Assembly: GCA_029261855.1 (NCBI GenBank)
Contig: JAJDAN010000043.1
Coordinates: 62,001-126,000, forward strand
Length of the DNA stretch: 64,000 nucleotides
DNA from: Deltaproteobacteria bacterium
GTDB lineage: Bacteria; Myxococcota_A; UBA9160; UBA4427
Direction of reading: 5' to 3'
Shown here piece after piece: positions 4,084 to 57,425 of this stretch; the first letter of the stretch is position 1; the number at the start of each line of letters is the position of its first letter. Under the pieces are notes generated by a model, which was not told where the DNA came from, made no database searches, and worked only from the letters and a program-made list of their open reading frames with translations. The position numbers and the translations under genes are program-made.

Positions 4084-4159
4084 GGGCCCTTAGCTCAGCT
4101 GGCAGAGCAGTGGACTTTTAATCCAACGGTCCGGGGTTCGAGCCCCCGAGGGCCCACCA
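4084..4159 (+). tRNA. tRNA-Lys(TTT)
   Basis: A 76-base cloverleaf. The acceptor stem GGGCCCT pairs with AGGGCCC, followed by an encoded ACCA end. The D-arm contains AGCTCAGCTGGCAGAGC, the anticodon loop is CTTTTAA with anticodon TTT at 4117-4119, and the T-arm contains GGTTCGAGCC. The 3' half (4121-4160) is repeated at 57387-57425, marking it as an island integration site, and the integrase remnant starts only 34 bases downstream. Confidence 0.97.
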
Positions 4160-4160: not shown

Positions 4161-4193
4161 TTGATTCCACTGCGAAAACACAGGTGGTCCAAC

Positions 4194-4619
4194 GTGCCGA
4201 AGGTGCGGCCTACTAAGACGCCGATCGAGAAAACTGTGCTCGCGAAGTCGCCAGTGTTCCTCTGGGATGACGAGCTTCGGGGCTTCGGGCTCTGCATTCA
4301 GCCCTCCGGTCGGCGCCCTTTCGTCGTCCGCTATCGGACGCGGGTAGGTCGACGAGACCGGCGCATGGTCATAGGGCGCTATGGAGCCATGACCATCCAA
4401 GAGGTGGGTCGCGAGGCGAGGGCTCTCCTCGGCGAAGTTGATCGCGGTGGCGGTCCGGCAAGCGAGAGGCAGGCCTCCGCGGGCGCAATGACGGTGAGGG
4501 AGTTCGGGAACCTCTACCTGGCCGAGTACGCGGAGCAGCATCACAAAGATGGCTGGGCCGAGGCGCGGTATCGAGCCAGCCAGCGGTACGCGGTCCGTTC
4601 GCTGATCCCGGCCGCTTGA
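4194..4619 (+). pseudogene. truncated P4-type tyrosine integrase
   Basis: The frame from GTG 4194 encodes an N-terminal arm DNA-binding domain of the DUF4102 type: LWDDELRGFGLCIQPSG and RRMVIGRYGAMTIQEVGREA are its hallmarks. It is followed by the first part of a core-binding domain (MTVREFGNLYLAEYAEQHH). The frame stops at 4619 after about 141 residues, while intact relatives have about 400 and end in the catalytic Arg-His-Arg-Tyr domain, which is missing. The last 20 or so codons run into an antisense IS481-type fragment. A TTG at 4161 could add 11 residues. The position right after the tRNA is the usual one for island integrases. Confidence 0.88.
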
Positions 4620-4853: not shown

Positions 4854-7175
4854 ATGGAGAGTTTTACCGACGACGAGCTCGTCCTCTGCCTTGATGCGTT
4901 CCGGACAAACGAGGGGACGGGTGTCTCCGAGGGGACTCCATGGATCCGAGACCTGAGCGATTTCCTCCGAGAGAATCCGTTTCACCCGGGTGGTGCACGG
5001 GACGCGTCGTACCGAAGCTCCGTTGGAATCAGTCGGCGAATCCGCAACTTCGTGGCGTTGGATCGGGATGACGGCGATGGGGATTCGTACTCCTTCGTAC
5101 CTCGGAGTGCGCGGTCGATCTGGGAGACGTACAGCGGCGACCTTGAGAAGCTTCGAAAGGACGCAGCTCGGATTCGAGCAGGGCGTCCTTCGAGCCCGCA
5201 TCCCGCGCGACCTGTTGCCGCGAGCAACTTGACGGAACCGCTAAGCCGCTACGACCTTTTTCAGCTAGATGCAGTTCAGTCAGTTGTTGAGGACTTCTCT
5301 GCGCAGGGCACAGGGCGGTTCCTACTCGTTGTTCCCACCGGTGGTGGCAAGACGTTCGTGGCGGTTCGGGCGATCGAGAGGATGTTCCAGCAAGGACTGC
5401 TCGACCTCACTGCACATCGAGTTCTGTGGGTCGCGCACCGGATCGAACTTCTAGACCAAGCGAGGGGGACTGCCGAGCGACAAGCAGAGGGGTCGCCAAT
5501 CCCGGCCTTCAAAGACCAGATCGACTTCTGCATGCTTGGCAAGGTCAAAGAACAACTCGCAGGCAACGAGAACGTCCGACTTGCCGTGATCGATGAGGCC
5601 CACCATGGGGCAGCCAATAGCTATCGTCCACTCTTCGACCGATCAGATATCGGCATTCTCGGACTAACCGCGACGCCATCTCGTCACGACGGTAAGTCGC
5701 TTGATTTCGAGAAGGAGTCTTACTCGATCGGCTTCCCAGACTTGGTCGACCTCGGCGTGCTCCTGCGCCCTGAGGTCGTTACGGTGGACGGTGGCACCTA
5801 CACCATCGACAGCATCGGCGAGCCTGACCAGCTTTCGGTTCTCAACAACGCAGAGCGCAATCGGAGAATCCTGAACGAGCTCGCTGCTGACCACGACCGG
5901 TATCGGAAAGTCATCGTCTACGTGGGCACGGTCGAACACGCAAGGGCGCTCTACGACGAGGTTCGCCAGTCCTCCTTAGGGCGCCACTACGACTTCGTCG
6001 GCTTCATCACCGGGGAGGCCCGGGCCCGCTTCTTGGCCTCCGAGGCTAGGGAGGTACACGAGGACCGCGCCGACTTCATTGCGGCGCAGCGCATAGCTGC
6101 GCGGTCGATTGTGATCAATGTCGACGTCCTTACAGAGGGCTTCGATGACCCTTCCGTTAACACCGTGGTAATGGCGCGCCCCACGAAGTCCAAGCTCCTC
6201 TACATGCAGGCGATTGGCCGCGCCGTGCGCGTCGACCCCAGCGATGAGGACAAGGCTGCCTACATCGTTGAGGTCTCGGATGACCTGCCCAACATTCGAT
6301 ACAGAATCGACAACAGGTGGCTGTTTTCGGATATCTCAGACGTACTGGAGCCGAGGGTTGTAGACCGAGAGTATCCCGATGTCGCGGGTCTAGAAGCGGC
6401 AATCGAGTCGGTGTTCGACGAATACTCGGTCGACGCCGCGTTCCGAGGTCTTCCGCCAATCCCCGACCGGAGTCGGGTCACTCTGCTCTTGTTCAAGGTG
6501 TACTCGGGACCCGGTTCGTATTACCACCTCCCGCTGCTGATCACGAACGAGACTCGCCGCAGGGTCGCAGACTTCTTCGACTTCCTTTCGGCACGCGTTG
6601 ACCGGTATCGTGGCGCCTCCCCTGAGGCGCTCTTCCGGATGGTCGCCGACAAGATTGAGGGTCTGAGCCTGTTCCACGACCAGCTTCACAGGAATCTCGT
6701 GTTTCACGCAATGGAGAATTCCTGGGTGCTGGCCGCCACCTCAATCGATGAAACAGAGAAGTCGGTCTACGCTAGGGGAGACCCCTGGATTACTTTCGTA
6801 GCGTTCAAGCTGCGCCGAGACGCGGCCTCTCTGGATCCGGACTTTGTCGACTTCACCGAGGACATGCTCAATCGTGAGGCCATCCGAGAGCTGCTTCTCA
6901 CCGAGAGCTACGCTGACGGGTACTTCTTGGTGAAGCTTCCCATGCCCCTCTCGGGGACTTGGGGCAGGCTAATGCCACCCCATGAATTCGCCATTCTGTA
7001 CGAGATCGTGGAGCAACTGGCTGAGATAGAAGTTTCTGAAGCTGTCGATCAGTGGACAACGGTCAGAGATATCCTCGACGGCTCAGTCTTCCCCATAGAG
7101 CAGAAGCACCGGGAAGCGCTCACAGCCGTGGTTCGCGAGCAGATGGACTATTTCAGGGAGCTTCGCAAGTCATAG
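4854..7175 (+). CDS. SF2 DEAD/DEAH-box helicase with McrA-like N-terminal domain
   Basis: 773 residues. The first 65 or so (DDELVLCLDAF, then GVSRRIRNF-like text before ALD) resemble the small N-terminal domain found ahead of HNH cores in McrA-like enzymes; that assignment is tentative. The helicase core follows: Walker A VPTGGGKT (about 160-167), DEAH box VIDEAHHG (about 245), motif III LTATPSR (about 271), and motifs V/VI in DVLTEGFDDP and MQAIGRAVR (about 452). It should use ATP to translocate on or remodel DNA. The 250-residue C-terminal region has no family I recognise. It heads a plus-strand run with three ParB-fold genes, only 12 bases before the first, so they probably form one operon. 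Confidence 0.9.
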   Translation: MESFTDDELVLCLDAFRTNEGTGVSEGTPWIRDLSDFLRENPFHPGGARDASYRSSVGISRRIRNFVALDRDDGDGDSYSFVPRSARSIWETYSGDLEKLRKDAARIRAGRPSSPHPARPVAASNLTEPLSRYDLFQLDAVQSVVEDFSAQGTGRFLLVVPTGGGKTFVAVRAIERMFQQGLLDLTAHRVLWVAHRIELLDQARGTAERQAEGSPIPAFKDQIDFCMLGKVKEQLAGNENVRLAVIDEAHHGAANSYRPLFDRSDIGILGLTATPSRHDGKSLDFEKESYSIGFPDLVDLGVLLRPEVVTVDGGTYTIDSIGEPDQLSVLNNAERNRRILNELAADHDRYRKVIVYVGTVEHARALYDEVRQSSLGRHYDFVGFITGEARARFLASEAREVHEDRADFIAAQRIAARSIVINVDVLTEGFDDPSVNTVVMARPTKSKLLYMQAIGRAVRVDPSDEDKAAYIVEVSDDLPNIRYRIDNRWLFSDISDVLEPRVVDREYPDVAGLEAAIESVFDEYSVDAAFRGLPPIPDRSRVTLLLFKVYSGPGSYYHLPLLITNETRRRVADFFDFLSARVDRYRGASPEALFRMVADKIEGLSLFHDQLHRNLVFHAMENSWVLAATSIDETEKSVYARGDPWITFVAFKLRRDAASLDPDFVDFTEDMLNREAIRELLLTESYADGYFLVKLPMPLSGTWGRLMPPHEFAILYEIVEQLAEIEVSEAVDQWTTVRDILDGSVFPIEQKHREALTAVVREQMDYFRELRKS

Positions 7176-7187
7176 GAGTCATCCAAC

Positions 7188-8333
7188 GTGGATTATCGCC
7201 CGAAGCTCGCGGCCATAAGCGTGGCGGTCGACAAGCTGGTGCTGGATCCGAATAACCCCCGGTTCTTGACGCACGAAGAGGACCTTTCATCTGGCAATCC
7301 CTCGGACCCCGGGATTCAAGCGCACGCACACCAGCGGATGCTCGCGGACGAGTACAGAATCGAGGAGCTGAAGGACTCGATCCGAAAGAACGGCTGGCAG
7401 CCCGTGGACATGATCTTTGTCCGTCGTGAGGAGGGAAGCGATCGGTATCTAGTCTTGGAGGGGAATCGTCGTGTTACCGCCATCCGCGAAGTGAAGAAAG
7501 AGCTTCCTGCCGACGAGAGGCAGGACCTCGATCCGCTGAACGTTATGGAGGTGCTCGATGACGGTCCGCTTGAGGAGGTCCAAGCAAAGATCGCGTACCT
7601 CCTGGGTGTTAGGCACCACGGGTCACTTCGGCCGTGGAGTCCGTTCGCACAGGCGCATAACATTTACCGACGCTACCTGCTTGAGGCCGGGCAGGACGAC
7701 GACTCCTTCTTCTGGAAACCCGAGGCTGCCGAGGCCGTTGCTAGGACGTTGAGTGTCAAAACAGAAGAGGTCCAGAACCGGCTCCGCGTCTACCGAGTAA
7801 TGAAGCAGATCGACCAGGTGCCGAGTGTTGCCTCGATAGGCGGAATCAAAGGGAGGTACTATTCCGTATGTGCGGAGCTCCTCCTGAAGCGTGGCAAGAA
7901 GAGCCCACTCCGCAAGTACATCGCACAGGATCCCAGCTCGTTTCAACTGACTGAGGAAGGACTGGACCGAATTGATCGGCTCGGTCACTTCTCGCGCGAG
8001 GAGCGGGCGGAGGCACCGATCAACAACCCTGCGGAATGGCGGCAATATGAGAAGATCCTGGCGGATGAGGACGAGGATCGCCGAGCGCAGATGATCACAG
8101 CAGTCGAGGTGGAGAAACAGAAGCCGAGCGAAGTCTACGCCGAACGCGCTGCTGAACTCCGAAAACCTCGCTGGGATACCTGGCTACGAGAGGTAGCTGC
8201 GCTCCTCGGAAGACCCAACCTCGCAGAGCTGGATCCCGAAGATCCGCTAGCACGAGACGCGATCACTCACCTGTTGGGCGTTCTGGCTTCTCTCGAGACG
8301 GGAGCCCCCAGCGGGGAGGGTGCAGATGGCTAA
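7188..8333 (+). CDS. ParB/sulfiredoxin-fold nuclease-like protein, copy 1
   Basis: 381 residues from GTG 7188, 12 bases after the helicase. The ParB-type domain is clear: VLDPNNPRF (about 18-25), a SIRKNGWQPVD segment, and the nucleotide-binding/catalytic box LEGNRRVTAIRE (about 88-99). A conserved middle section (GVRHHGSLRPWSPFAQAHNIY) and a predicted helical C-terminus are shared with the next two genes, so the three are paralogues. Free-standing ParB-fold proteins in defence loci may act as CTP/ATP-dependent clamps or nucleases; which applies here is unknown. It overlaps the next gene by 8 bases, indicating translational coupling. Confidence 0.85.
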   Translation: MDYRPKLAAISVAVDKLVLDPNNPRFLTHEEDLSSGNPSDPGIQAHAHQRMLADEYRIEELKDSIRKNGWQPVDMIFVRREEGSDRYLVLEGNRRVTAIREVKKELPADERQDLDPLNVMEVLDDGPLEEVQAKIAYLLGVRHHGSLRPWSPFAQAHNIYRRYLLEAGQDDDSFFWKPEAAEAVARTLSVKTEEVQNRLRVYRVMKQIDQVPSVASIGGIKGRYYSVCAELLLKRGKKSPLRKYIAQDPSSFQLTEEGLDRIDRLGHFSREERAEAPINNPAEWRQYEKILADEDEDRRAQMITAVEVEKQKPSEVYAERAAELRKPRWDTWLREVAALLGRPNLAELDPEDPLARDAITHLLGVLASLETGAPSGEGADG

Positions 8334-9531
8334 CCCGCGTCTCGACGAGAAACGGATCTCGATTCACGACTTGATGCTCGACCCCAGCAACCCCAGATTC
8401 GTAGATGGGTTCGGGCAGGAGGTGGCGGTCGAGGATTCCGGAGTAGAGGCTGTACAAGAGGAACTGTTGCGTCGGTTCAAGGTCGGCAGTGAGCTGGAGG
8501 AAGCTGCCGATGAAGATGAGGACCGTGAGGGCTTCTTCGCGATCAAGGAGCTACATGCCTCCATGACTTCGATTGGCTTCGTCCCCATCGATCGCGTTGT
8601 CGTCCGTGAACTGGAGCGAAGTAGCAAGTTCCTCGTGATCGAGGGGAACCGACGCGTGAGCGCGGCGAAGACTCTGTTGAGAGAGGACGCAGAGGCGCTG
8701 CCTGGGAAGGAGCTGCCCAACGAAATCCGGGAGACTCTCGAGGAGATTCTTGTACTGGTCATCGATACAGAAGGGATGGACCGTGGCGACATCGAGAAGG
8801 AGGTTGGGGTCATCCTCGGGCTTCGTCACTTCGGCTCAGTTCTGCCTTGGAGGCCACTGCCCAGGGCGCACTCGATCTACACCCAGTACATGAGCGTGAC
8901 CGATGGCACAGATTTTCGGGTGGCCCCGAAGGCGTTCAGAGATGTCGCCCACAGGCTCTCGATTTCGGCGGCCGAGGTGCGAAGAGCGATCCGGACCTAC
9001 ATCGCATACAACCAGCTTAGGGATGAGGATGGGGGCGTGCTTCCGAGCCACTACTCGCTGATTGAGGCAGCGGTTACGGACCGACGGCTAATCGGTCACT
9101 CCTATTTGGAGGTGAGTGACGGCACCTACGAGCTGAGTGAACCCTCTCTCCAGAGACTGAACAAGATTTGCCAATTCGCGGCGCGGGACCAACTGGCGGC
9201 CGACAAGAAGATCCTCGCGGACCCGAAGGCTATCAAGCCCTTCGGGCGGCTCGTGGCTGACGCAAAGGGCGGAGACCCTGAAGCGATCAGGGGCTTCGCA
9301 ACGAATTTGCTGATCGATGTCGAAGATGGGAACCGGTCGCTAGAGGATGCCGTTGACCACCTGACGACCTTCAAGAAGGCCCGCAAGTGGGTTGGAGCCC
9401 TAGAGGAACTACTGGATCAGCAGGAGAAGAAACTCGTTCTGGGGGACTACAGCGGGACGGGAAACGACTTGCTGCAAAAGCACGGGTTGGATCGTGTTCT
9501 CAGGAACTACAGGATCCTGCTCAAGATCTGA
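8326..9531 (+). CDS. ParB/sulfiredoxin-fold nuclease-like protein, copy 2
   Basis: 401 residues from ATG 8326, chosen over the GTG at 8320 because a GGGGAGGG site lies about 8 bases upstream of the ATG. It repeats the plan of its neighbour: LDPSNPRF (about 18-25), IEGNRRVSAAK (about 104-114) and GLRHFGSVLPWRPLPRAH. The C-terminus also has a VLPSHYSLIEAAV segment shared with copy 3 and, more weakly, copy 1. An acidic insertion (EEAADEDEDRE) between the first two boxes is specific to this copy. Same operon and probable role as copy 1; it may form a hetero-oligomer with the other copies. Confidence 0.85.
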   Translation: MANPRLDEKRISIHDLMLDPSNPRFVDGFGQEVAVEDSGVEAVQEELLRRFKVGSELEEAADEDEDREGFFAIKELHASMTSIGFVPIDRVVVRELERSSKFLVIEGNRRVSAAKTLLREDAEALPGKELPNEIRETLEEILVLVIDTEGMDRGDIEKEVGVILGLRHFGSVLPWRPLPRAHSIYTQYMSVTDGTDFRVAPKAFRDVAHRLSISAAEVRRAIRTYIAYNQLRDEDGGVLPSHYSLIEAAVTDRRLIGHSYLEVSDGTYELSEPSLQRLNKICQFAARDQLAADKKILADPKAIKPFGRLVADAKGGDPEAIRGFATNLLIDVEDGNRSLEDAVDHLTTFKKARKWVGALEELLDQQEKKLVLGDYSGTGNDLLQKHGLDRVLRNYRILLKI

Positions 9532-9582
9532 CGTCTGCGACGGGCTGCCGATCCCATTCCTCGAGAGCGGAGGTCTACCAAG

Positions 9583-10704
9583 TTGGTGACGGAAGCGATC
9601 AGTTGTTACTCACTCAAGACTCTGCGGGTAAGCCCGAACCAGCTCCTATTGGACCCATCGAATCCTCGTCTGATAACAGACGGCTCTGAGGATGATCGCA
9701 GCTATACCTCCGAGCAGATCCAGTCGCCGAAGCTGCAGAAATATGTGCTCGGCAAGGTAAGCCAGGACGAGCATCACGTTAGGCATCTGATCGACGGAAT
9801 CCGGCAGACCGGTTTCCTCGGTGGTGTTCATGAGATGATCGTCAAGCGCCTCGATCACGACAGGTTTCTCGTGATCGAGGGGAACCGGCGAGCCGCCGCA
9901 CTTCAGCACCTGCTCGGTAGCCCGGGAAGTGTGACGGAGCAAGTGCTTGCCACGATCCGAGAGATCGAAGTGAAGGAGTTCATCTACAAGCCAAACGAAA
10001 GCTACGAGGAAGAGGACGTAATTGACGTAATCCTCGGAACGATCCACATCGACGGCCCTGAAGAGTGGGGCGCGTTGCAGAAGGCCCGCTACATATTCAA
10101 GAGCTATGCGAGAGCGTTCCTCCGGGAGTGGGGGGAGGCTGAGGAGCTCTTCTTTGACAATCAACTGGCCGAGCAAGTCGGGCAGAACTTCAACCTGAAA
10201 GCCCCGAGTGTTCGCGTACTCACTACCGTGTACAGAGTCTATGAGCAAATGCGGATCGGTGGCTTCAAGGTTCTACCGAGTCACTACTCGCTGCTTGAAA
10301 TGGCAGTCAAGACTCGGGCCGTCCGGGACTACTTTGAGCTCGACTGGGAGATTTGCGCGTTGTCCGATACCGGCCTGGAGCGATTCGCCGCGCTCTGTCT
10401 CGGGGACGCTCCACCAGTACACAATCCGGGACTGTTCCGGGGCTTCGTGTTCATTGTCAAGAACGGGACTACTGCAGATGTCGAAGCGGCGACGAGCGGC
10501 GCCCGACAGATCGATGCGGTCAAGCGAAAGGTCAGGGGTCGGCTGAAGACGACGGCCTTTCGAGATGAGTTGGCCGCGATTCGCAGTCAGATTGGCGCGA
10601 TGAAAGTCACGGACTTCCAGGGGACCAAGGGGGAGAAGCAGGAGATTCGCCGCCTTCGCAAGATCGTGAATGAGAAGCTCTGGCCTCTCGCCCGTCGCCG
10701 TTGA
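9583..10704 (+). CDS. ParB/sulfiredoxin-fold nuclease-like protein, copy 3
   Basis: 373 residues. The start is TTG 9583 or the GTG next to it at 9586; GGAGG lies about 9 bases upstream. The ParB boxes are LLDPSNPRL (about 21-29) and IEGNRRAAALQ (about 97-107). The middle and C-terminal blocks (LPSHYSLLEMAVK) align with copy 2. It is the most divergent of the three: the GLRH block is replaced by GTIHIDGPEEWGALQKAR. It is separated from copy 2 by 51 bases and is followed by a convergent minus-strand gene, so it closes the first plus-strand run. Confidence 0.84.
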   Translation: MVTEAISCYSLKTLRVSPNQLLLDPSNPRLITDGSEDDRSYTSEQIQSPKLQKYVLGKVSQDEHHVRHLIDGIRQTGFLGGVHEMIVKRLDHDRFLVIEGNRRAAALQHLLGSPGSVTEQVLATIREIEVKEFIYKPNESYEEEDVIDVILGTIHIDGPEEWGALQKARYIFKSYARAFLREWGEAEELFFDNQLAEQVGQNFNLKAPSVRVLTTVYRVYEQMRIGGFKVLPSHYSLLEMAVKTRAVRDYFELDWEICALSDTGLERFAALCLGDAPPVHNPGLFRGFVFIVKNGTTADVEAATSGARQIDAVKRKVRGRLKTTAFRDELAAIRSQIGAMKVTDFQGTKGEKQEIRRLRKIVNEKLWPLARRR

Positions 10705-10804
10705 GCGAGCGCCGTGCTTCTAGTTCCCGTTTGATCGGCGTCAACTGTTCTTTCCGGTTGGCGGACGATCGCTTGCCAGAAGTTCTTGCGGTGGAGAGAC
10801 GGCT

Positions 10805-11890
10805 CTAGCGTGGTCGCTGTGTCCCCGGGCCGTCAGACCATCGGATCACCATCGAGTGTCCGGGTCGGCTCCATGATAGTTCTGGGTAGAAGAAATCGAG
10901 CCAATCGTAGAGGACTCGAACATGATCGGTTAGTTCGCGCCTCCGCGGCGTGGGCTTGTCAGAGCAGTTGGCTTGTAGCCACTGCTTGACCAGTCCGAAC
11001 CGGGCGCTCCCCGCGTCTCGGATCAGCTGAACGATCGCAGCGACAAGGGGCCGCGCTGTGAACTGCTCGCCCAGCTGCGAGTAGAACTGAGCGCTGCTGA
11101 GTCCAGCTGGCAGCTCGAAATTGGAAGCGTCATGCGCGTACGCCGGCAGTTGATCGTCGGGCAGACTCCCTAGATCGCGATACCAGTTGTAGAACAAGCG
11201 TGGGTTCGGCGACGCCGGCAGCGAGAGAATGCTGAACTCCACATCCGGTGTCGGAAGGTCGAACGGTGGTAGCTCGGTCGACGCTCGGTGCTGCTGCGCA
11301 TATTGAGCAGCCATCTCGTAGAGCGAATCGTCAACCCGAGTACTGTCCTCGAGCAATTCAAAAACCTTCAGCCAATCCTGCCGGGTGAGTTCGACGAACG
11401 ACCCGACCTCGATGTTGCTCTCTCTTGCGTAGCCCAGGCCCTTGGCCGTCAGGTTCCCGCTGGTGTGGAAAGCGACGTTGTTCCGAAGGATGTACAGTTT
11501 GAGGTGGATCTTTGGGTTGATGTAGAGCGGTACCCGTTCCTCGCGAAGCAGCTTGTAGACACTCGGATCTGCTGCACCGGACGCGAGGTCTTGCTGGTTC
11601 CATCGCGTGATTACCTGCAGGTCAGCCGTAGACTGTGCGTGACCGAGAAGGCGCTTGAGCGCGGCACGAGTCGCGAACGGGGCGATCAGCAGGCAGGGGT
11701 GGTTGCCCTCCTCCAGCGCCTGCGTGAGTGCGGCTTCGATTGGGCTCCAGACGAGTGTGGCAGTTGGCCCCAATGCGTCCTCCTCTGGCGCAACTTCCTG
11801 GGTTCGTTCAGCGGCTCCCCATGCGAAACTTAGCGCTGTATTCATGGGTGACGTAAGCGAAAGCGTTGGTGGGGCTTGTATGAGCTTCAT
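10805..11890 (-). CDS. phospholipase D-like nuclease family protein
   Basis: 361 residues. One PLD half-motif is visible: IHLKLYI (His129, Lys131) followed by FHTSGNLTAKGLG and ESNIEVG. This is the usual layout of PLD-family DNases and restriction proteins, which dimerise to build an active site from two HxK motifs. The Asp that normally follows HxK by four residues appears replaced (ILRNN), so activity is uncertain. The N-terminal half is a Rossmann-like PLD fold (LLIAPFATRAALKRLL). The C-terminal 150 residues are of unknown type. It is transcribed opposite to its neighbours: its start lies only 36 bases from that of the MORC ATPase, so both share one short divergent promoter region. Confidence 0.8.
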   Translation of the reverse strand: MKLIQAPPTLSLTSPMNTALSFAWGAAERTQEVAPEEDALGPTATLVWSPIEAALTQALEEGNHPCLLIAPFATRAALKRLLGHAQSTADLQVITRWNQQDLASGAADPSVYKLLREERVPLYINPKIHLKLYILRNNVAFHTSGNLTAKGLGYARESNIEVGSFVELTRQDWLKVFELLEDSTRVDDSLYEMAAQYAQQHRASTELPPFDLPTPDVEFSILSLPASPNPRLFYNWYRDLGSLPDDQLPAYAHDASNFELPAGLSSAQFYSQLGEQFTARPLVAAIVQLIRDAGSARFGLVKQWLQANCSDKPTPRRRELTDHVRVLYDWLDFFYPELSWSRPGHSMVIRWSDGPGTQRPR

Positions 11891-11926
11891 CTCGCTGCCG
11901 AGGTGCCACCCCGTTGAGGAGTCCGG

Positions 11927-13660
11927 ATGGTCCAGTTCTTCAAGAATGAGCGCGCCATCCAGTCGCTCCGCGAGTCAGATTTCGACGCGGTCAGCGCTTA
12001 CGGCGAAGTCATTGACAATGCAATTCAGGCGGATGCCGGTCGAGTCCAGATTCGCTTCGCGACGGAGCCGCCGAAGCACGGGTACTCGCACATCGAGTAC
12101 GTGGCCTTCGGGGACGATGGCCACGGTATGGACGCGCAGACCCTTCACAACTGCCTGACAGTTGGCTGGTCCTCCCGCTACAACGATCGCGATGGGATCG
12201 GCCGTTTCGGGGTCGGAATGACTATGGCCGCGATCCATGAATGCAAGCGAGTCGAGGTCTGGTCCAAGGTCGCTGGCGGAGATTGGCTGTGGACCTACAT
12301 GGACCTGGACGAGATCGAGGAAGGGGCACTCGCCGAGATTCCCCAGCCTGAGTCGAAGGCCCCTCCCGGAGACCTGGCTGATCTCGCTGGTGGCAAATCG
12401 GGCACTCTCGTAGTCTGGCGCAAGTACGATCGTCAGGACGAGAACGCAACGGAGATCATCAAGGACCTGCGTGTCTGGGCTGGCCGGACATATCGCTACT
12501 ACCTATGGGATGCGATCCCGCCACGAACTGGGCCTGTCGAGATTTTCATCGACGGCGAGAACGTCCCCGCAATCGATCCGTTGTACGCCCGGCCGGAGTT
12601 GTCGAGATTTCCGAACGACCCCGCGGCTGAGGTCTATCCCGACATCGAGTTCGAGTGGCCCGTTGACCAGTCCCAGGCGGCTGAAGCCGGCCACACCGAG
12701 ACGATATCCATCCGCCTCTCGAAGCTACCCGTTGAATTCCGAGAAAAGGAAGGCGCTGGCGGTGACAAGCAGGCGATGGATCGATACATCGACCAGAACG
12801 AAGGGCTTTCTATCCTTCGAAACCATCGAGAGGTCTTCTACGGAGAGATCCCGTACTGGAAGGTGGGTGGCAAAGGTTGGCCGCAGTTCGAGGCGATTGA
12901 CCGATGGTGGGGCTGCGAGATTCACTTTGGAGCGGAACTCGACCGGGCGTTTCAGGTCAAGAACATCAAGCGTGGGGCGGTTCCAACTAGGAAGCTCAAG
13001 GTCACGATCAAGGACAAGATTCTCCCCACGAGGAACACTGTGTTGGAGGATGTCCGACGGGTATGGGCGGAGGAGAAGCAGCGGCGGAAGGAGGAGGAGG
13101 CTCGGGAGCTCGAAGAGGCAACTCTTACGCGGTCCGGAGATCACCACGAAGCCGAGACGGTCGCCAAGAAAACACCCACCGACAAAACCAAGATAGATGA
13201 GGGCAAGGACCTCGACCAAGAGGCACACAAGCAGGCGGAGAACTACAGCGATCGCTTCGACAAGGAGCAGCGGTCAGAGCTGGAAGCGCTTTTTAAGAGC
13301 CAGCCGTTTACGATCATGGAAGAGACCTGGCGTGGCCCGCAGTTCTTTGAGTCATCGTTTCTTGGGGGCAACGCGCTGCTTCAATACAACATGAGCCATG
13401 AGCTCTTTGGCTGGGTCTACGGGCTGATCGACGAGCTCGACGAGGATGGCGTCGACTCGGAGGGCATCGCCCGCGAGCTGCGTGTCGTCCTTGATCTCCT
13501 GATTATCGCGTACGCGAAGGCGGAGGCATCTTTCTCGCCGGACGTGGAGTACCCCGCGGAGCACTTCATTGAGACGCTGCGTTCCAATTGGGGGCAGTAT
13601 TTGTCCAACTATGTGCGCACCCGGCGCAAGCAACGTGGAAGCAGCGAGGATGCCCTCTGA
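11927..13660 (+). CDS. MORC-like GHKL ATPase
   Basis: 577 residues; ATG 11927 follows GAGGAG at good spacing. The GHKL ATP-binding fold is explicit: motif I EVIDNAIQADA (Glu27, Asn31), motif II FGDDGHGMD (about 61-69) and motif III GRFGVGM (about 91-97). This is the arrangement of MORC, Hsp90 and MutL ATPases, and prokaryotic MORC proteins are known from restriction-type loci with SF2 helicases. A charged, helical middle (about 380-440) leads to a C-terminal module of about 45 residues that recurs at the end of the next protein (LRSNWGQYLSNYV). ATP-driven dimer clamping on DNA is the likely activity. The gene overlaps the next one in an ATGA. Confidence 0.87.
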   Translation: MVQFFKNERAIQSLRESDFDAVSAYGEVIDNAIQADAGRVQIRFATEPPKHGYSHIEYVAFGDDGHGMDAQTLHNCLTVGWSSRYNDRDGIGRFGVGMTMAAIHECKRVEVWSKVAGGDWLWTYMDLDEIEEGALAEIPQPESKAPPGDLADLAGGKSGTLVVWRKYDRQDENATEIIKDLRVWAGRTYRYYLWDAIPPRTGPVEIFIDGENVPAIDPLYARPELSRFPNDPAAEVYPDIEFEWPVDQSQAAEAGHTETISIRLSKLPVEFREKEGAGGDKQAMDRYIDQNEGLSILRNHREVFYGEIPYWKVGGKGWPQFEAIDRWWGCEIHFGAELDRAFQVKNIKRGAVPTRKLKVTIKDKILPTRNTVLEDVRRVWAEEKQRRKEEEARELEEATLTRSGDHHEAETVAKKTPTDKTKIDEGKDLDQEAHKQAENYSDRFDKEQRSELEALFKSQPFTIMEETWRGPQFFESSFLGGNALLQYNMSHELFGWVYGLIDELDEDGVDSEGIARELRVVLDLLIIAYAKAEASFSPDVEYPAEHFIETLRSNWGQYLSNYVRTRRKQRGSSEDAL

Positions 13661-14244
13661 TGTCGCGGAAGGTCCTGGCAGAACAGGGGAGTCCGAGGAA
13701 CCGGCTGGTTCTAGCCCTAGATGAGTACCAGGGTCATCGATACCTGGATGCGAGAGAGTGGTATCTGGACCGGAAGGCCGAAGAGTGGAAGCCCAAGAAG
13801 CGCGGTGTGACCTTCAACCGCGATCGTTTCGGTGCGCTGATGGAGCTGGTCCAGACCAGAGCGGAAGAGATTATGGACTGGCTCGGGGTGGGGTACGTGC
13901 CGGAGCACGTGGCACGGTATGAGGAGGCTCAGGCCCAGGCTCAGCTTGAAACGCGCTACCGCGTAGGAGACCTGGAGATCGGGACGTTCTCAGAGCGCAG
14001 AGATCCTCGGTTCTTTCGGGTCGAACACGAGGGGGGTGCGGACCGCGTGTCGTTCAATTCCGAGCAAGCGGTTGCGTCCAAGTTGTCGAACGAAGACGTC
14101 GCAGCGACATTGGGAGCGGTTTTGTGCGCCTACCAGCGAGCGAGGGCGATGCTGTCAGCTTCGCCGGCGACGGATCCTGAGGTCTTGTTCGAGCAGCTCG
14201 AGTTCGACTGGGCAAGGTACCTAAGCGACTACCTCTCCGATTAG
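13660..14244 (+). CDS. PC4-like (p15) DNA-binding domain protein
   Basis: 194 residues. The start ATG overlaps the stop of the MORC gene (ATGA at 13657-13662 region). Residues 17-62 (LVLALDEYQGHRYLDAREWY, then WKPKKRGVTFNRDRF) match the transcriptional coactivator PC4/p15 domain, which binds single-stranded or melted DNA. The rest is helical. The last 45 residues (from about AVLCAYQRARAML to WARYLSDYLSD) resemble the C-terminal module of the adjacent MORC protein, suggesting a common partner or heteromeric assembly. A PC4 domain beside a GHKL ATPase and helicase would fit capture of single strands. The PC4 call is by eye. Confidence 0.72.
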   Translation: MSRKVLAEQGSPRNRLVLALDEYQGHRYLDAREWYLDRKAEEWKPKKRGVTFNRDRFGALMELVQTRAEEIMDWLGVGYVPEHVARYEEAQAQAQLETRYRVGDLEIGTFSERRDPRFFRVEHEGGADRVSFNSEQAVASKLSNEDVAATLGAVLCAYQRARAMLSASPATDPEVLFEQLEFDWARYLSDYLSD

Positions 14245-14247
14245 CCC

Positions 14248-15915
14248 ATGGCGAACCTATGGAAATACTGGCCCGCCAAGGAGCTGCAGAAGACGCTCGA
14301 TGGATTCGATGCTGAACTCATGCAGGATCTGCAAGAGATTCTTCCAGCGCTCAAGGGCTCCGAGTTCAACAGGAATGAGCTCTACCTCAAGGAGAACCTA
14401 GTCAAGGTAGTCGAGGCATTTCTGCCTGCTGAGAGTCTGTCCCGCCGCGAGTTTCGATCTCACTGCCTCGATAGACTGCCGCCCGATGAATTGCGCGACC
14501 TGGCAGACGTGCTCGTGATGGACGCCCCGGCCGATACGTTCGAGGAGCGGCGAGATGCGATTTCCGCGCGCCAGTGGCGCGGCCAGTTCGCGGAAGCGTT
14601 CGTCAACCACTTCGAGTTGCCCCGACACTTCCTTCCCCTCGAGTCGGAGATTCGTCCTGACTATCAAGACCTGGCGCCCGCGTCGAGGGAGGCGCCGATC
14701 TTCGTCGACCTTCCCTTTAAGCAGCTCAAGCGATACCAGTTCGAGGTGTACTTCGAAGCGCTGAGTCTCCTTGATACGCCTCGAAGACGCTTTGTCATCC
14801 AAATGCCCACTGGCTCGGGCAAGACGAGAACGGCGATGGAAGTCGTCTCCACGTTCCTGAACGAGCATGAAGACGACGGAGTGGTCGTCTGGCTTGTGCA
14901 CTCGGAAGAGCTCTGCGAACAGGCGATGCAGTGCTTCTTGGACGTATGGCCTCATCATGCACGATCAGTGGTTCGTGTATCTCGATGTTGGGGTAAACAC
15001 CCGCTGCCAGCCCTCGCTGCGGGGCGAATGCTGATAGTTGGCGGGTTCCCCAAGCTGCACGCGGCGCTGCGTCGGGATCACACCGTGCTCGATGATCTCA
15101 AGGCGAGAGTGTCGCTGATCGTGGTCGACGAGGCGCACAAGACAGAAGCGCCGACATACAAGCAAGTCGTTCAGTCGCTGTTGGGGCCGCGCGCAAGTCT
15201 ACTGGGCCTGACTGCAACGCCGGGCCGTACGGTGGAAGGGGAGGTCGAGGGCCTGGCGGCGTTCTACTTCAACAAGAGGATCGGTATCCCGACGTCCGGC
15301 CGGGAGTCCGTGATCCGCATGCTCAAGGACCAGGGAATCCTCTCTCGCGTTTCCTTTGAACCGTTGATCACCCAGATCAATGTAGACCTAACAGCTACGC
15401 AGCTGCGGGCGCTTGAGGAGCAGTTTGACTTCCCTCCATCGCTCCTGCGGACGCTCGGCAGGAGCCGCGTGCGAAACATCGAGATTGCGAGGAGGCTTAC
15501 GGACGAGTGCGAGCGAGGGTCTCGCGTGCTGTTTTTTGGGTGTAGTGTGAAACACTCGATGTTCATAACGTCTCTTCTGATCTATCTGGGTTTCCGTGCT
15601 GAGCATGTCGATGGAGGTACGTCGCGAGAGCGCAGGCAGGCTGTGATCAAGGGCTTTCGAGAGGGCGGCGTGCAGGTACTTTGCAATTTCGGTGTCCTGG
15701 ATACGGGCTTCGATGCCCCAAACACCGATGTCGTCTTCATTGCTCGTCCAACGGCGTCGCCGGTGCTGTACAGCCAGATGATCGGCCGTGGGCTCAGAGG
15801 GCCTGCAATTGGCGGGACCGAGTCTTGCAAAATCATCGACGTTCGAGACAACTTCGTGGGCTTTGGGAGTTCAGAGCGGGTCTACGAACTCTTTGATGAG
15901 TACTGGGACGACTAG
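14248..15915 (+). CDS. SF2 DEAH-box helicase (second copy in locus)
   Basis: 555 residues, 3 bases after the PC4-like gene and thus in its operon. N-terminal 180 residues are an unassigned helical domain. The core has RYQFEVYF (Q-motif region), Walker A MPTGSGKT (about 184-191), DEAH box VVDEAHKTEAP (about 291), LTATPG (about 321), a DTGFDAPNTD motif V and SQMIGRGLRG (about 508-517). It differs from the helicase at 4854 in both flanking domains, so the two are not recent duplicates. Helicases of this group serve as translocase subunits in restriction-like systems; it carries no nuclease motif itself. Confidence 0.9.
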   Translation: MANLWKYWPAKELQKTLDGFDAELMQDLQEILPALKGSEFNRNELYLKENLVKVVEAFLPAESLSRREFRSHCLDRLPPDELRDLADVLVMDAPADTFEERRDAISARQWRGQFAEAFVNHFELPRHFLPLESEIRPDYQDLAPASREAPIFVDLPFKQLKRYQFEVYFEALSLLDTPRRRFVIQMPTGSGKTRTAMEVVSTFLNEHEDDGVVVWLVHSEELCEQAMQCFLDVWPHHARSVVRVSRCWGKHPLPALAAGRMLIVGGFPKLHAALRRDHTVLDDLKARVSLIVVDEAHKTEAPTYKQVVQSLLGPRASLLGLTATPGRTVEGEVEGLAAFYFNKRIGIPTSGRESVIRMLKDQGILSRVSFEPLITQINVDLTATQLRALEEQFDFPPSLLRTLGRSRVRNIEIARRLTDECERGSRVLFFGCSVKHSMFITSLLIYLGFRAEHVDGGTSRERRQAVIKGFREGGVQVLCNFGVLDTGFDAPNTDVVFIARPTASPVLYSQMIGRGLRGPAIGGTESCKIIDVRDNFVGFGSSERVYELFDEYWDD

Positions 15916-15967
15916 TATGCGGATTGCGGTAGGCCGGGGGTAGCGTCTGTCTACAAATCCCAGATAC

Positions 15968-17065
15968 GTGACACAAACCGGCTTCGTTGCCGAGGTTGGC
16001 GCCGTTGTTAACGGCCAGTTTGAGCTGCTTGAGTACGTAGGCAAAGGGGCGACCGCGCGAGTCTGGAGGGCGAGGCATCTGCTCGGACGCTTTGATGTTG
16101 CGCTGAAGCTCCTGAACGCGACTCGGCACGACTTCGAACTCGGGCGGGAGGAGTTCCATCAGCTCTGCAACCTCTACCATCCGAATGTGGTGCGGACCTT
16201 TGGAATGCAGTTGGTAGAGGGGCATGATCAGGCATTCGTGACCATGGAGTTCGTCGATGGCCGAACGCTCGATGCCATGGCGCATGGGAAGAGGCGCGAA
16301 GCTCCCGAGTTGGTCCTTCAGTGGTTGATCCAGATGGTGGATGTCCTTCAGTACCTGCACTCCATGAGGATCATCCACAAGGACATCAAGCCGGCGAACA
16401 TCGTTCTCGACGAGCAGCGCCTGGAGCCTCGCGCCGTCCTGATCGACTTCAATATCTCCCATCTCCAGAGTCCGGACTTCGGCACGCCCGCCTATCGCTG
16501 CCCCGGCGTCGAGGCGGATCGCGTATGGTCTCCTCACTCGGACGTCTGGGCGCTGGCCCTCACATTCTACGAGGTGCTCGTCTGCCGAGAGATCTTCGAT
16601 AGGAAGACCGCCTTCGACGTCGATCTCTCGGGCGACGAATGTCCGCCCGGGTTTCCAGCTGGTGTGTTCGGGGCGATTCAAGGCATCATCCAGGGGCGCG
16701 GTACTGATGGGGAGTTCGCGGAGGGCTACCGCAAGCTCTTCGACGTTGAGAGTCTCGATCGAGCAGAGATCGAGCTTTCGGAAGAGGTGGCGCGAGAGTT
16801 CGGTGTTGGTAGCCGGAACCAGAGGTTCCTGACGCTCGCCATGCTGAACTTCGATCCTGAACAGCCCCGCTCGAAGGATGTGATCCTCCGGCACGCGCTG
16901 CATCAATCGGGGCGGCCAGCTAGCGCAAATGAGATGCGCAAGTTGCGCCCAGTATTCTCGCAACTTAAGGCAAGCGGTGTGTTGGAGTACAAGGGGAAGG
17001 GAAACAAGAAGGCGATGCTAACGGAGGGTTTTCGGAAGGCCGTTGGGCAGGGCCTGGGCGGTTAG
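15968..17065 (+). CDS. cytoplasmic Ser/Thr protein kinase
   Basis: 365 residues from GTG 15968. Eukaryotic-type kinase motifs are present: Gly-rich loop VGKGATARVW, VALKLL with the catalytic Lys (about 48), catalytic loop IIHKDIKPANIVL (about 135-147) and the metal motif DFN in place of DFG. It continues with GTPAYRCPG and SDVWALALTFYEVL. No membrane segment is present, so it is soluble. The 110 C-terminal residues look like a helix-turn-helix-type extension (QLKASGVLEYKGKGNKKAML). Kinases accompany several defence systems as sensors or switches. It ends 27 bases from the convergent dndE, so the two transcription units meet here. Confidence 0.87.
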   Translation: MTQTGFVAEVGAVVNGQFELLEYVGKGATARVWRARHLLGRFDVALKLLNATRHDFELGREEFHQLCNLYHPNVVRTFGMQLVEGHDQAFVTMEFVDGRTLDAMAHGKRREAPELVLQWLIQMVDVLQYLHSMRIIHKDIKPANIVLDEQRLEPRAVLIDFNISHLQSPDFGTPAYRCPGVEADRVWSPHSDVWALALTFYEVLVCREIFDRKTAFDVDLSGDECPPGFPAGVFGAIQGIIQGRGTDGEFAEGYRKLFDVESLDRAEIELSEEVAREFGVGSRNQRFLTLAMLNFDPEQPRSKDVILRHALHQSGRPASANEMRKLRPVFSQLKASGVLEYKGKGNKKAMLTEGFRKAVGQGLGG

Positions 17066-17092: not shown

Positions 17093-17491
17093 TTAGGCCG
17101 GGATCTCAGCTCCGTCGGAGTCGTCGACCAGATGAACCAGTGCGTCGATGCTCCGGAGCGCTGCGGAGCCCGCCAGGTACCCTAGGCCGCGATGCACATG
17201 CAGCCTCAGCTCGTCGTGCAGCGTCTCGCGGTCGACTGAGAGCCCGTCCTCAGCACATCTGGTCTTGAGTGCGGCCAAGAGAATGTCCTGGTGTGTTCCG
17301 GCGAAGACGCTCCACGACATCTCTACATTGCTGTCAGAGGGGATCTGCGTACGGGGAGGCTTCGTCTGCTCGGTCAGCGACAGGCAGAACGCCCATCGGC
17401 ACAGGGTGTTCCAGTTCTTGATCCCGGTATGCCGCTTGAGCGTGATGAGCTGACGCTTTCCCTTCTCGGATATCCGCAGGCTGCCAAGCAT
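17093..17491 (-). CDS. dndE: DNA sulfur modification protein DndE
   Basis: 132 residues. The N-terminal signature RISEKGKRQLITLKRHTGI and NWNTLCRWAFCLSL is characteristic of DndE, the small protein that binds nicked DNA and is needed for phosphorothioate insertion. AGGAG precedes the ATG at 17491, and the gene starts 9 bases after dndD ends, so it is the last gene of dndBCDE. The length is usual for the family. The C-terminal DELRLHVHRGLGYL segment is also typical. Confidence 0.93.
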   Translation of the reverse strand: MLGSLRISEKGKRQLITLKRHTGIKNWNTLCRWAFCLSLTEQTKPPRTQIPSDSNVEMSWSVFAGTHQDILLAALKTRCAEDGLSVDRETLHDELRLHVHRGLGYLAGSAALRSIDALVHLVDDSDGAEIPA

Positions 17492-17500
17492 GGTGTGCTC

Positions 17501-19474
17501 CTACCAGAAGTAGCCCGGCTCTACGTGAGTAGACCGAGACTCGGCGTCGTACTTGAGAACGTAGGACCTGCCAACCGCGTGCTCGATCGCAGGGTAGTAG
17601 ATCTGGTTGATCTCCTCGTCTGTTGAGAGCAGGAGAACCTGGTGGCTGGCTCGCGGGAAATACCTCTCTACGAGGTTTGCGCGGTGCTCGGAGTCGAGAC
17701 GTCCGAGTGGCGTGTCGATCACGGTTGGGAGAGGGCGTCCGGATAGACGAGCGAGGCCCCATAGAATTGCTACGGCGAGAAGCTGCCTTTCCCCAGCGGA
17801 GAGCCGGTCGGGCGAGAGGGGTACCCCCGAGTCGTCCCGGAGCGATACGTCGAATGTCTCATGGTCGAGTTCGACCGCGCCGACGAGTCCGGGCTTCCCG
17901 AGAAGCTGCTGCAGGCTGTCGAGGATGAGCGCTGAGATGCGGTCCGAGTTCCGGCTCACGAGAGCTGACGCGAAGGTGTCGAGGATGCCCCGGGTACGGC
18001 GCGAATACTCATGAATCCGGCGGCTCGAGTCGTTAGCGAACCGGGCGGAGACGTCCTTCTCCATTGCGACTCGGCGGCTTCGGGTCGCGTCTTCGAACTC
18101 GCGTCGACTCGCGTGGAGCAGTTGGGTGAGTGCTTCAGTGGCTCCTCTCGCGCGCTCAGCCTCTTGCGCGGCATGCCGCGCGGTGGTTTCCAGCTCTGCG
18201 ACGGCGTCTTCGTGGGGAATCGCCTCGAGGCGACCCTCAACGACCTGAAGCTCCTGCTCGAGGGCGTGAGTTGTCCTCCTCGAGCCTTCGAGACTCTGCC
18301 GAAGGGGAGTGGCTCCCTCCATCAAGAATGCTCTCAGCTCCAGGTGCGCTTGATGCGGCATTTCGAGGAACGTGTCCGTGGCTGCGCGTTCTTGGCGCTT
18401 CAGCCGGTCTTCGTGGAGATACTCGTCAAGCGACCCAAGACCGGAGACTCTTATCGAGTCCGTCTCTTCGAGGAACCTGAGAATCTCCTTGTCCCTTCCC
18501 TCGAGTAGCGCTTGGGTCGCTTCGCTTTCCGCGGCGGCGGCCTCCCGATCGGCTTGCTCTTGCACTCTCCGTAGAAGGGGCTCGACCAAGAGCAGAGGAG
18601 CCGCTCCGGCAGCTAGTTCGACGAGCTGGCCTTTCGACTCCGCGATTCGTCGCATCAAGTCAGCTCGTTCGTGCTCCAGCAACAGTCGCCGAGTAGCGAG
18701 CGAATGCTCCCCGGATGCCTCGAGGAGGTGCCCACTCGCATCCTCCGCGGCCCGCTGGGCTCCGGCTCCTCGTTCCTTTGCCTCGCGAAGCTCGAGCTGG
18801 AGTTCGTCGATTCGGCTCGAGAGCTCCGCGATCTTCGCTTCGAGCTTGTCGAGTTCTTGGCTCTCGGTCGGCGTGTCGAGCTCTTCCAGCTTCGCCTTCT
18901 CAATCATTCGCAGCGACGAGCCCAAGCGCTCGAGCAGGTCTACGCCGAGCAGTGAGGTAATCGCAGTCGTCAGAATTTCTCGAGACGTGGACGGGTCGGC
19001 CAGCTTCTCGATCTTCTCCCCATCGAAAAAGAACAAAGGGGCGATGCCTACGGGCAGGAGCAGCTCGACGTACTCATCCCAGCCGTCTTCCAGTGCCGCG
19101 TCTCTCTGGCCATCGCGGTAGACCGTCAGGGAATCACCGGTGCTCGAAGCGGAGGTCCAGGAGCGGCGAATCGATACCTCGGACTCTTGGCCTTCGTCTC
19201 GCGTTGTAAACTGCAGCTCGACTGCGCTGCTGGCCTCGCCGCGGTGAATGCAGTTCTTGAGGTACTCCTTGTACGCAAGGGAGCCGCGGTTCGAACAGCG
19301 GGCGCGCTTGCCATAGAGGGCGAGCTGTAGCGCGTCGAGCAGGGTTGTCTTGCCGCGTCCATTGAGACCGCCGATCAGAACGACCGGTTTCTTTGGCGAG
19401 GGCGGGGTGAGGACAAGCTCATGCTTGCCTCGGAAGAGACCAAAGTTGTTCAGGGTGATCGCGTCGATGATCAT
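17501..19474 (-). CDS. dndD: DNA sulfur modification protein DndD (SMC/Rad50-like ATPase)
   Basis: 657 residues. Walker A GLNGRGKTTLLDALQLAL (about 35-52) and the ABC signature with Walker B, LSAGERQLLAVAILWGLA and TVIDTPLGRLD (about 560-605), flank a long coiled coil rich in Glu, Arg and Ala. This is the SMC/Rad50 layout of DndD, the ATPase that works with DndC and DndE on the DNA backbone. Its ATG overlaps the dndC stop by one base, so expression is coupled. Nothing appears truncated. Confidence 0.95.
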   Translation of the reverse strand: MIIDAITLNNFGLFRGKHELVLTPPSPKKPVVLIGGLNGRGKTTLLDALQLALYGKRARCSNRGSLAYKEYLKNCIHRGEASSAVELQFTTRDEGQESEVSIRRSWTSASSTGDSLTVYRDGQRDAALEDGWDEYVELLLPVGIAPLFFFDGEKIEKLADPSTSREILTTAITSLLGVDLLERLGSSLRMIEKAKLEELDTPTESQELDKLEAKIAELSSRIDELQLELREAKERGAGAQRAAEDASGHLLEASGEHSLATRRLLLEHERADLMRRIAESKGQLVELAAGAAPLLLVEPLLRRVQEQADREAAAAESEATQALLEGRDKEILRFLEETDSIRVSGLGSLDEYLHEDRLKRQERAATDTFLEMPHQAHLELRAFLMEGATPLRQSLEGSRRTTHALEQELQVVEGRLEAIPHEDAVAELETTARHAAQEAERARGATEALTQLLHASRREFEDATRSRRVAMEKDVSARFANDSSRRIHEYSRRTRGILDTFASALVSRNSDRISALILDSLQQLLGKPGLVGAVELDHETFDVSLRDDSGVPLSPDRLSAGERQLLAVAILWGLARLSGRPLPTVIDTPLGRLDSEHRANLVERYFPRASHQVLLLSTDEEINQIYYPAIEHAVGRSYVLKYDAESRSTHVEPGYFW

Positions 19475-21003
19475 CAGTCCACGACCTCATCGAGGTGCTG
19501 CGGGGGAAGTGGTCGGATATGTGGGTCACTGGCCGCATAGTCCTCGGCTGAGGTCTCGAGGTCGAGCGAGAGTTGCAGTGCGCGGTTCGTCGCATCTTCC
19601 TCGTCGTCGTAGAAGCTCTTCGAGATCGTCTTCTCGATCTTGTCGAACAGGCCCGCACGACGAACGGCAGTGCGGTAGCCGTGCTCAACCGCGATGAGGT
19701 TCCGGGCCAGTTCGAACTGAAGCTCGTTCTCACCACAGAGCGATCGAAGGAGCTCCAGGTCGTCGTGTCCGAAAGGAAGGCTGTCCGTCATCCGAGCATC
19801 GGGGAACGCCTCGCCCGTGGCGTCTTCGTAGATTCGTGGGAGCGAATCTTCGATCTCGTGCTTGTCTACGACCCAGATGCGCCGAATTTCGCGGAGCTCA
19901 TCGAGAGTGACTAGCAGGATGTCTCGTACATCCCTCGGCCCGTTCTTGCGAATCCACGTCTGCGCCTGGAGAAGTTCGCCAAGCCACTCTTCGCGGATCT
20001 GTTGCTTGTAAGGTCCGGGAACTGTCTTGCCATTGAAGATCTGGACGCGGCCGTGCATGCGGCGGAAGTCACGCTGACCTCGGCCGTCCGAGACCGCGAA
20101 CTTGTCGCGGAATGCAAGAAGGGGGCGCATCCACGACTTCTCGTCGTCATTCTGGATCATTGCTGCCATCGACTTGTCCTTGTCCACGAGCGTGCAGACC
20201 CAGCAACCGAATCGACTACTGCCGCAGCTCGGTGTGGTCGTATCAACCACGAGCGGGCACTCGCCGTCCGCCGATGCGCCCTGGTACATCGTCAGAAGAT
20301 CCTTGTTCCGGTAGCCCCAGGGGTTCTTGTACTGCATGAGGAACAGCCAGACATCGTCGTTCGTCCAGTCTTCAACCGGCGCGTAGATGAGGCAGTTGTC
20401 GAGACTCGGATTCGGGCTGAGCTTGTCTCGCGTCCTTTCCCTTTCCGTCTTCTCCATCGCGCGCTTGCGCAGGTTGCTCTCGGCCTTTCTGGTGCCCAGC
20501 GCCACAATGACTTCGCCGTTCTTCTGTACCTGGCGCTTAATGAACTCGTTGGACGGTTCGATCTTCATCCGCTCGGTGCACCATCTGAACTTGCGGTGGG
20601 GCGCTGGATAACCCCTGCCCAGGAGGTTCACCCAAAAGGTCCTCTCGGTTCGAGGGATGAGCTTGTGGGTCTCGAAGGGCACTTTTTGGTTCCGAGATTC
20701 CTTGTCCATTCGGGCCAGAGAGGCGTCTACCCAGGCAGAGACGACCGGATTCTCGACCAGCGTGTCGGTGGTAATCACGTGCACCTGCTTCTTTCGCTGT
20801 TCCGGGGGCAAGCCAGCGATCGCCATCCAGATCAGCTGCAGAGTCGCAGTCGAATCCTTGCCCCCGCTGTAGCCCACGATCCAAGGCAGCGAGTCGGACA
20901 GGTAGATCGCCCGGATCTCTTCGAGATGCGCCTCGATGGAAGCCTTGATGCCGTGATCGCTGAACGCTGAGTTCCGGTTCGCCACCTTCCCCTTAGTTGC
21001 CAT
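19474..21003 (-). CDS. dndC: DNA sulfur modification protein DndC (PAPS reductase-like)
   Basis: 509 residues. The PP-loop YSGGKDSTATLQ (about 45-56) marks an ATP pyrophosphatase of the PAPS-reductase superfamily. The Cys-containing segment SCGSSRFGCWVCTLV (about 275) fits the Fe-S cluster site of DndC. WCTERMKIEP and ALGTRKAESN are other family signatures. DndC activates the DNA backbone with ATP and receives sulfur from DndA. It overlaps dndB at the 5' side by 11 bases and dndD at the 3' side, within the dndBCDE operon. Confidence 0.95.
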   Translation of the reverse strand: MATKGKVANRNSAFSDHGIKASIEAHLEEIRAIYLSDSLPWIVGYSGGKDSTATLQLIWMAIAGLPPEQRKKQVHVITTDTLVENPVVSAWVDASLARMDKESRNQKVPFETHKLIPRTERTFWVNLLGRGYPAPHRKFRWCTERMKIEPSNEFIKRQVQKNGEVIVALGTRKAESNLRKRAMEKTERERTRDKLSPNPSLDNCLIYAPVEDWTNDDVWLFLMQYKNPWGYRNKDLLTMYQGASADGECPLVVDTTTPSCGSSRFGCWVCTLVDKDKSMAAMIQNDDEKSWMRPLLAFRDKFAVSDGRGQRDFRRMHGRVQIFNGKTVPGPYKQQIREEWLGELLQAQTWIRKNGPRDVRDILLVTLDELREIRRIWVVDKHEIEDSLPRIYEDATGEAFPDARMTDSLPFGHDDLELLRSLCGENELQFELARNLIAVEHGYRTAVRRAGLFDKIEKTISKSFYDDEEDATNRALQLSLDLETSAEDYAASDPHIRPLPPQHLDEVVD

Positions 21004-22090: not shown

Positions 22091-22144
22091 TGGGAAACGC
22101 TCCGGAAATTGTCTCGGGCGGGGCGACGGAGGCAGCATAGTGTG

Positions 22145-22168: not shown

Positions 22169-22221
22169 ATTCGCCGCGCTGGAAGAGTTTCTTGGGGTGC
22201 CCTTTGGGAGAACGCCGGTTG

Positions 22222-57386: not shown

Positions 57387-57425
57387 ATCCAACGGTCCGA
57401 GTTCGAGCCCCCGAGGGCCCACCAT
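57387..57425 (+). repeat. right attachment site (attR-like), tRNA-Lys 3' copy
   Basis: 39 bases copying 4121-4160 of the tRNA-Lys gene: ATCCAACGGTCCG, then AG instead of GGG, then the exact 25 bases through CCCACCAT. No full tRNA precedes it, so it is a duplicated end and not a second tRNA. It marks the right border of the island. Confidence 0.85.

Follow-up and report, generated by a model that had tools for sequence, protein, structure and literature searches.

Phosphorothioate (PT) modification, which places sulfur in the DNA backbone, is widespread, and at the many PT loci that lack DndFGH the enforcement of the mark is an open question (PMC10853773). The restriction partners described for Dnd are DndFGH, in which DndH is a HerA/FtsK translocase, and DndI (PMC10853773, PMC11662687). 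The SspBCD modification genes are partnered by SspFGH, with a Walker-A SspF and an FtsK-like SspH, or by SspE, a DUF262-HNH protein (PMC8092258). PbeABCD is a PT-based system of archaea and bacteria, whose PbeA joins PLD, ResIII and Helicase_C domains in one protein and whose PbeC is a DndD-like ABC ATPase (PMC6459918). Dnd loci also carry nucleases in which an HKD domain is fused to an SF2 helicase, and wHTH+SAD+HNH proteins are common there (PMC10853773). MORC/paraMORC operons combine a GHKL ATPase with an SF2 helicase and a nuclease, in some cases also with an HKD domain, and lie next to genes for DNA modification, which are DNA methylases in the part of that source available, where PT is not linked to them (PMC2292703).

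The window (the whole 64,000-nucleotide stretch analysed here) contains a tRNA-Lys gene (4084-4159, plus strand) with an att-like 3′ end. This end (4136-4159) has an exact second copy at 57401-57424 with more similarity flanking, and the dnd genes and the block beside them therefore sit within an island of approximately 53 kb. The near-identical direct repeat that bounds this island runs from 4121 to 4159 and from 57388 to 57424; by our own reading it is followed at 4161-4619 by an integrase-like ORF remnant, for which there was no library match. Profile searches identified dndE (17093-17491; PF08870, 136 bits), dndD (17501-19474; TIGR03185, 564 bits), dndC (19474-21003; TIGR03183, 658 bits) and dndB (20993-22138; TIGR03233, 530 bits) on the minus strand, and a dndA-type cysteine desulfurase (22192-23343, plus strand; TIGR03235, 470.5 bits, slightly below the cut-off of 480). 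All five are full-length with strong family matches. A gene for a PT-associated putative methyltransferase (23340-25712, minus strand; TIGR04096, 584 bits) adjoins the operon.

Nine near-touching genes form the block, which runs up to dndE. An earlier note had described their order, strands and domains, and this description holds: all nine are intact ORFs at the positions it gave, with ResIII/Helicase_C, ParB_N, PLDc_2, HATPase_c_3, PC4 and Pkinase domains. Module A, entirely on the plus strand, consists of the SF2 helicase HelA (4854-7175, 773 aa; ResIII/Helicase_C), ParB1 (7188-8333), and the ParB1 paralogues ParB2 (8320-9531, 28% to ParB1) and ParB3 (9583-10704, 24% to ParB1). ParB1 has a ParB/sulfiredoxin fold with an EGNRR motif, a weak ParB_N match and matches to PADLOC ParB-like families. 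Module B comprises PLD (10805-11890; PLDc_2), a phosphodiesterase/nuclease with a single HxK...GSxN motif that is here on the opposite (minus) strand, followed on the plus strand by the GHKL ATPase MORC (11927-13660, 577 aa; HATPase_c_3), a PC4-like protein (13660-14244) and HelB (14248-15915), a RadD/ResIII-like SF2 helicase. The start ATG of the PC4-like gene, at 13660, shares one base with the stop codon of MORC. Last is a Ser/Thr kinase-like gene (15968-17065, plus strand; Pkinase, with a C-terminal extension of about 150 aa), whose end is convergent with dndE. The block probably represents two PT-linked effector modules on one Dnd operon in the tRNA-Lys island, module B being recurrent and Ssp-derived and module A being coupled to Dnd.

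Profile searches against the named PT systems gave no one-to-one match to PbeABCD, DndFGH, SspE or SspFGH, and block proteins matched named PT effector families only partially or far below cut-offs. The absence of a DndFGH or SspE signature, noted before, was borne out: block profiles were negative, and neither DndH nor SspE was found in the whole genome by searches that were positive in control genomes. SspF, SspG and SspH profiles found nothing among the block genes, with the same models reaching 726-1926 bits on true members; at genome level the SspH search found nothing in any control genome either. No DUF262 domain was found among the block genes. Module B resembles SspFGH and SspE in its partner, which at other loci is likewise SspBCD, but the Walker-A SspF, SspG, the FtsK-like SspH and the DUF262-HNH SspE are absent from the block (PMC8092258), and its identity with SspFGH was ruled out by the PADLOC models and the published description. 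As with DndFGH and DndI, the partner in the window is Dnd. However, DndH is not in the genome, the block has no DUF262-HNH protein and the ParB-like proteins of the window lack an HNH domain.

PbeABCD is likewise PT-linked and combines an HKD/PLD domain, an SF2 ResIII-type helicase, an ATPase and small proteins (PMC6459918). The earlier note had raised a divergent Pbe-like system, and a PbeABCD in which PLD and helicase had split could be read from the domains of PbeA and from HelB, whose best PADLOC matches were the PbeA models. However, this match reached 72 bits and covered the helicase core only, compared with 828 bits for a true PbeA; the best PbeA match genome-wide was 58 bits. Among the block and dnd genes the PbeC models matched only dndD, and PbeB and PbeD were missing from the block. 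Module B instead has a GHKL/MORC ATPase and a PC4-like protein in place of PbeC and PbeB/PbeD, and its PLD and helicase are separate genes. PbeA and module B also coexist at another locus (L023). We consider a divergent PbeABCD very unlikely; given the missing PbeB, PbeC and PbeD and the HelB score, neither its split nor its single form was supported. Other defence systems fitted no better: PLD matched DrmC of DISARM at 26 bits with no DrmA or DrmB, 52.8 bits was reached against an equivalog cut-off of 850 for MzaB of MZA, and the kinase scored 108.8 bits against a cut-off of 460 for the MAD6 kinase of MADS. The HKD and SF2 helicase nucleases of Dnd loci share with module B both activities and the PT link, but are one fused protein, described with no mention of a GHKL or PC4 component (PMC10853773). 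Searches of open-licence PMC papers (preprints excluded) turned up no account of the MORC-PC4-HelB-PLD set, nor of a link between it and PT. It is thus apparently an undescribed variant of PT-based defence, although parts of the design are known.

The catalytic motifs of module B are invariant across the MORC, PLD and HelB alignments. MORC, with HATPase_c_3, GHKL ATP-binding motifs that are invariant in 13 aligned sequences and profile matches to the solved MORC2/3/4 structures, is a GHKL ATPase of the MORC/paraMORC type. In PLD, H129, K131 and N146 are invariant (11 sequences), whereas the aspartate of the HKD half-site is not conserved. HelB keeps the SF2 motifs and resembles RadD. The PC4-like protein has an N-terminal domain with the PC4 fold, matching BPSL1147 and T5 PC4, and its C-terminal part is similar to MORC (E=3e-6; for the protein of locus L020, E=2e-13); because of this common C-terminal domain, the two proteins probably assemble together. 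A viral origin was considered and rejected: no MORC relative was found in 2.9 million viral contigs. Scans of viral contigs with HelA and HelB returned distant helicases only (24-32% identity).

Module B was repeatedly found beside PT modification genes. A scan of 84,980 genomes with two MORC sequences, from the window and from a Rhodobacteraceae plasmid, and with no other gene, yielded 16 loci. On the Rhodobacteraceae plasmid, genes for a PC4-like protein, a helicase and PLD come after a MORC 47% identical to that of the window, and beyond them lie an IS-rich stretch and then an Ssp system with a PT-associated methyltransferase; relatives of the TIGR04096 methyltransferase are present at several Ssp-linked module B loci. 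In the first sample, family profiles detected all three of MORC, HelB and PLD in the window and at L013, L019-L025, L028, L029 and L069, and all 12 have PT genes within about 10 kb, which are Dnd in the window and Ssp in the rest. Plasmids of Pannonibacter, Pleomorphomonas and Roseobacter (L182, L183 and L184) have SspA-D next to a helicase-MORC-PLD subtype that lacks PC4. L182 was chosen partly for its SspB match, and L183 and L184 solely for adjacent MORC and helicase matches. At L185, MORC, HelB and PLD have a cysteine desulfurase alone nearby, with no SspBCD within 10 kb. Dnd or SspBCD genes therefore lie within about 10 kb at 15 of the 16 sampled MORC+HelB+PLD loci, a neighbourhood check that agrees with the PT link first proposed. 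These 15 come from several phyla and one archaeon, often with the modification genes directly adjacent, and module B thus adjoins PT modification genes in unrelated genomes, the linkage taken here as a sign of PT restriction. Only the window has Dnd as the partner; module B usually partners Ssp. A search of 379 genomes anchored on HelB gave only three near-full-profile matches, all PT-linked. PC4 is also absent at L022 and L024, and is not essential at every module B locus.

Defence genes cluster, and genomic linkage alone cannot separate PT sensing from co-residence in an island. Module B could then act independently of PT, as a nuclease or in DNA repair or defence, and only share its islands with PT systems, as L185 and the sets of MORC/paraMORC, SF2 helicase and nuclease long known from ordinary restriction-modification operons (PMC2292703, in the part available) might suggest. 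However, the proximity of Dnd or SspBCD in so many phyla is mostly not seen for MORC relatives without HelB. Some of the latter adjoin type-4 BREX (L031, L033) or SspE (L030), and others have no PT genes (L014, L034, L060, L066-L068, L070). PT linkage was 12/12 for MORC+HelB+PLD compared with 3/12 for MORC without HelB (p about 3e-4, a descriptive value since the loci share ancestry). A PT-independent module appears quite unlikely. Maximum-likelihood analysis places the window MORC together with that of Ssp-linked L028 (98/95), inside a clade of 12 rows (100/100), and the other 11 rows adjoin ssp genes, with only an sspA-like gene on the short contig of L027. Because the window MORC nests within this Ssp-linked clade, a switch of partner by module B, from Ssp to Dnd, is the most likely history.

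Outside the block, and missed by the earlier note, the PT-associated methyltransferase gene is adjoined by a gene for an HNH restriction endonuclease of a known PT-DNA-binding type (26237-27193, plus strand; NF045808, 347.7 bits against a cut-off of 180). Lying in the same island, it is an additional candidate effector that may act with Dnd. Given the strength of this match and the frequency of wHTH+SAD+HNH proteins at Dnd loci (PMC10853773), it might even be the main Dnd-coupled effector, with the block as backup only. This would leave unexplained why module B recurs next to Ssp, and a relative of the endonuclease was found at one locus only (weak, L069); we regard it as unlikely. The sequence at 27774-27851 scores just above the threshold for the alphaproteobacterial SAM riboswitch (36.4 bits; cut-off 36), a borderline hit.

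Module A is linked to Dnd separately, because HelA-ParB converges on dndE in Agrobacterium without module B. On the Ti plasmid of Agrobacterium larrymoorei (L079), a full-length HelA relative beside ParB is convergent on dndEDCB in the layout of the window. The top HelA matches among 72,556 plasmids were two A. larrymoorei records, both among the only nine plasmids of that collection with a dndE match. A related arrangement, in which a PLD-helicase fusion and ParB converge on dndE, is found at L059. The sample for module A is thus the window, one Agrobacterium lineage and L059; among 379 genomes the HelA profile matched only the window. There is one ParB in Agrobacterium and three in the window, where ParB2 and ParB3 were identified solely by models of ParB-like defence proteins and by their resemblance to ParB1. 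The predicted fold of ParB1 matches CDP-bound ParB (pLDDT 62.7, a low-confidence model of which the general fold alone was used). The ParB/sulfiredoxin superfamily includes DndB and SspE (PMC11662687), and members of the ParB family are also encoded outside dnd loci (L017, L061-L065). None of the module A proteins showed a recognisable nuclease domain.

The near-touching genes and their convergence on dndE would favour one nine-gene system acting jointly. However, L079 has module A with dnd and without module B, module B occurs without module A at other loci, and the kinase is at none of them; a single system was ruled out by these neighbourhoods and is hardly credible. The proposal of two stacked systems, one of helicase and ParB and one of PLD, MORC, PC4 and helicase, is borne out by the occurrence of modules A and B apart, but the kinase, which had been placed within the second, does not belong there. 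No relative was found at the other module B loci (a weak generic kinase match only at L066), and the kinase is not part of any recurrent unit, standing with module B in the window only. We regard it as an accessory, comparable to the DUF2196+Schlafen AlbA_2 gene that immediately follows PLD at L020 (14919-15803) and L025 (14798-15580), in two unrelated genomes. Stacked PT effectors recur, since other loci carry more than one: at L023 (4970-14826), PbeA and a PbeC-like gene immediately precede module B next to SspBCD, and on an Agrobacterium plasmid (L186, 5639-18316, and L188) MORC and helicase genes are followed first by SspFGH and then by SspABCD.

Gene context and domains suggest that module B carries out PT-dependent restriction that spares the host's own DNA, and that the block may replace DndFGH or SspE as the PT-sensing arm, as first proposed. 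On the simplest reading, it would be a clamp, motor and nuclease restricting unmarked DNA. MORC would form an ATP-gated dimeric clamp around DNA, the PC4-like protein, probably assembled with it, would hold single-stranded DNA, HelB would translocate and unwind, and PLD would cut, probably as a dimer because each protein has one HxK...GSxN half-site. Host PT marks would release or stall the clamp, so that only the unmarked DNA of invaders would be destroyed. The subunit most likely to couple to PT, or to read it, is MORC, since no other also turns up next to type-4 BREX and SspE with its partners missing. In module A, the ParB-like clamps may mark or scan DNA with HelA as the motor. More tentatively, and with some doubt, the MORC-family GHKL ATPase may be a general PT reader across Ssp, Dnd and type-4 BREX, module B sorting self from non-self under both Ssp single-strand and Dnd double-strand PT. 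Conserved, portable and present beside both Ssp and Dnd, module B is a concrete candidate for the enforcer where DndFGH is absent, and the presence of its ATPase beside type-4 BREX as well offers an approach to the question of which component recognises sulfur. If the proposal is true, it would tie the MORC ATPases of prokaryotes, which are related to the chromatin MORCs of eukaryotes, to a mark on the DNA backbone.

On three Vibrionaceae plasmids a MORC relative is soon followed by a PAPS-reductase-like protein of about 550 aa (L015, 11962-15853; L016, 9953-14687; L187, 9986-14258). No Dnd or Ssp genes were seen at these loci, and the pairing is a possible further link between MORC and sulfur. 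Mutually similar proteins are encoded at three PT loci (L028, 13475-15727; L059, 17956-19998; L181, 14548-16359), that of L028 with a weak DndB match, and may be a further PT component.
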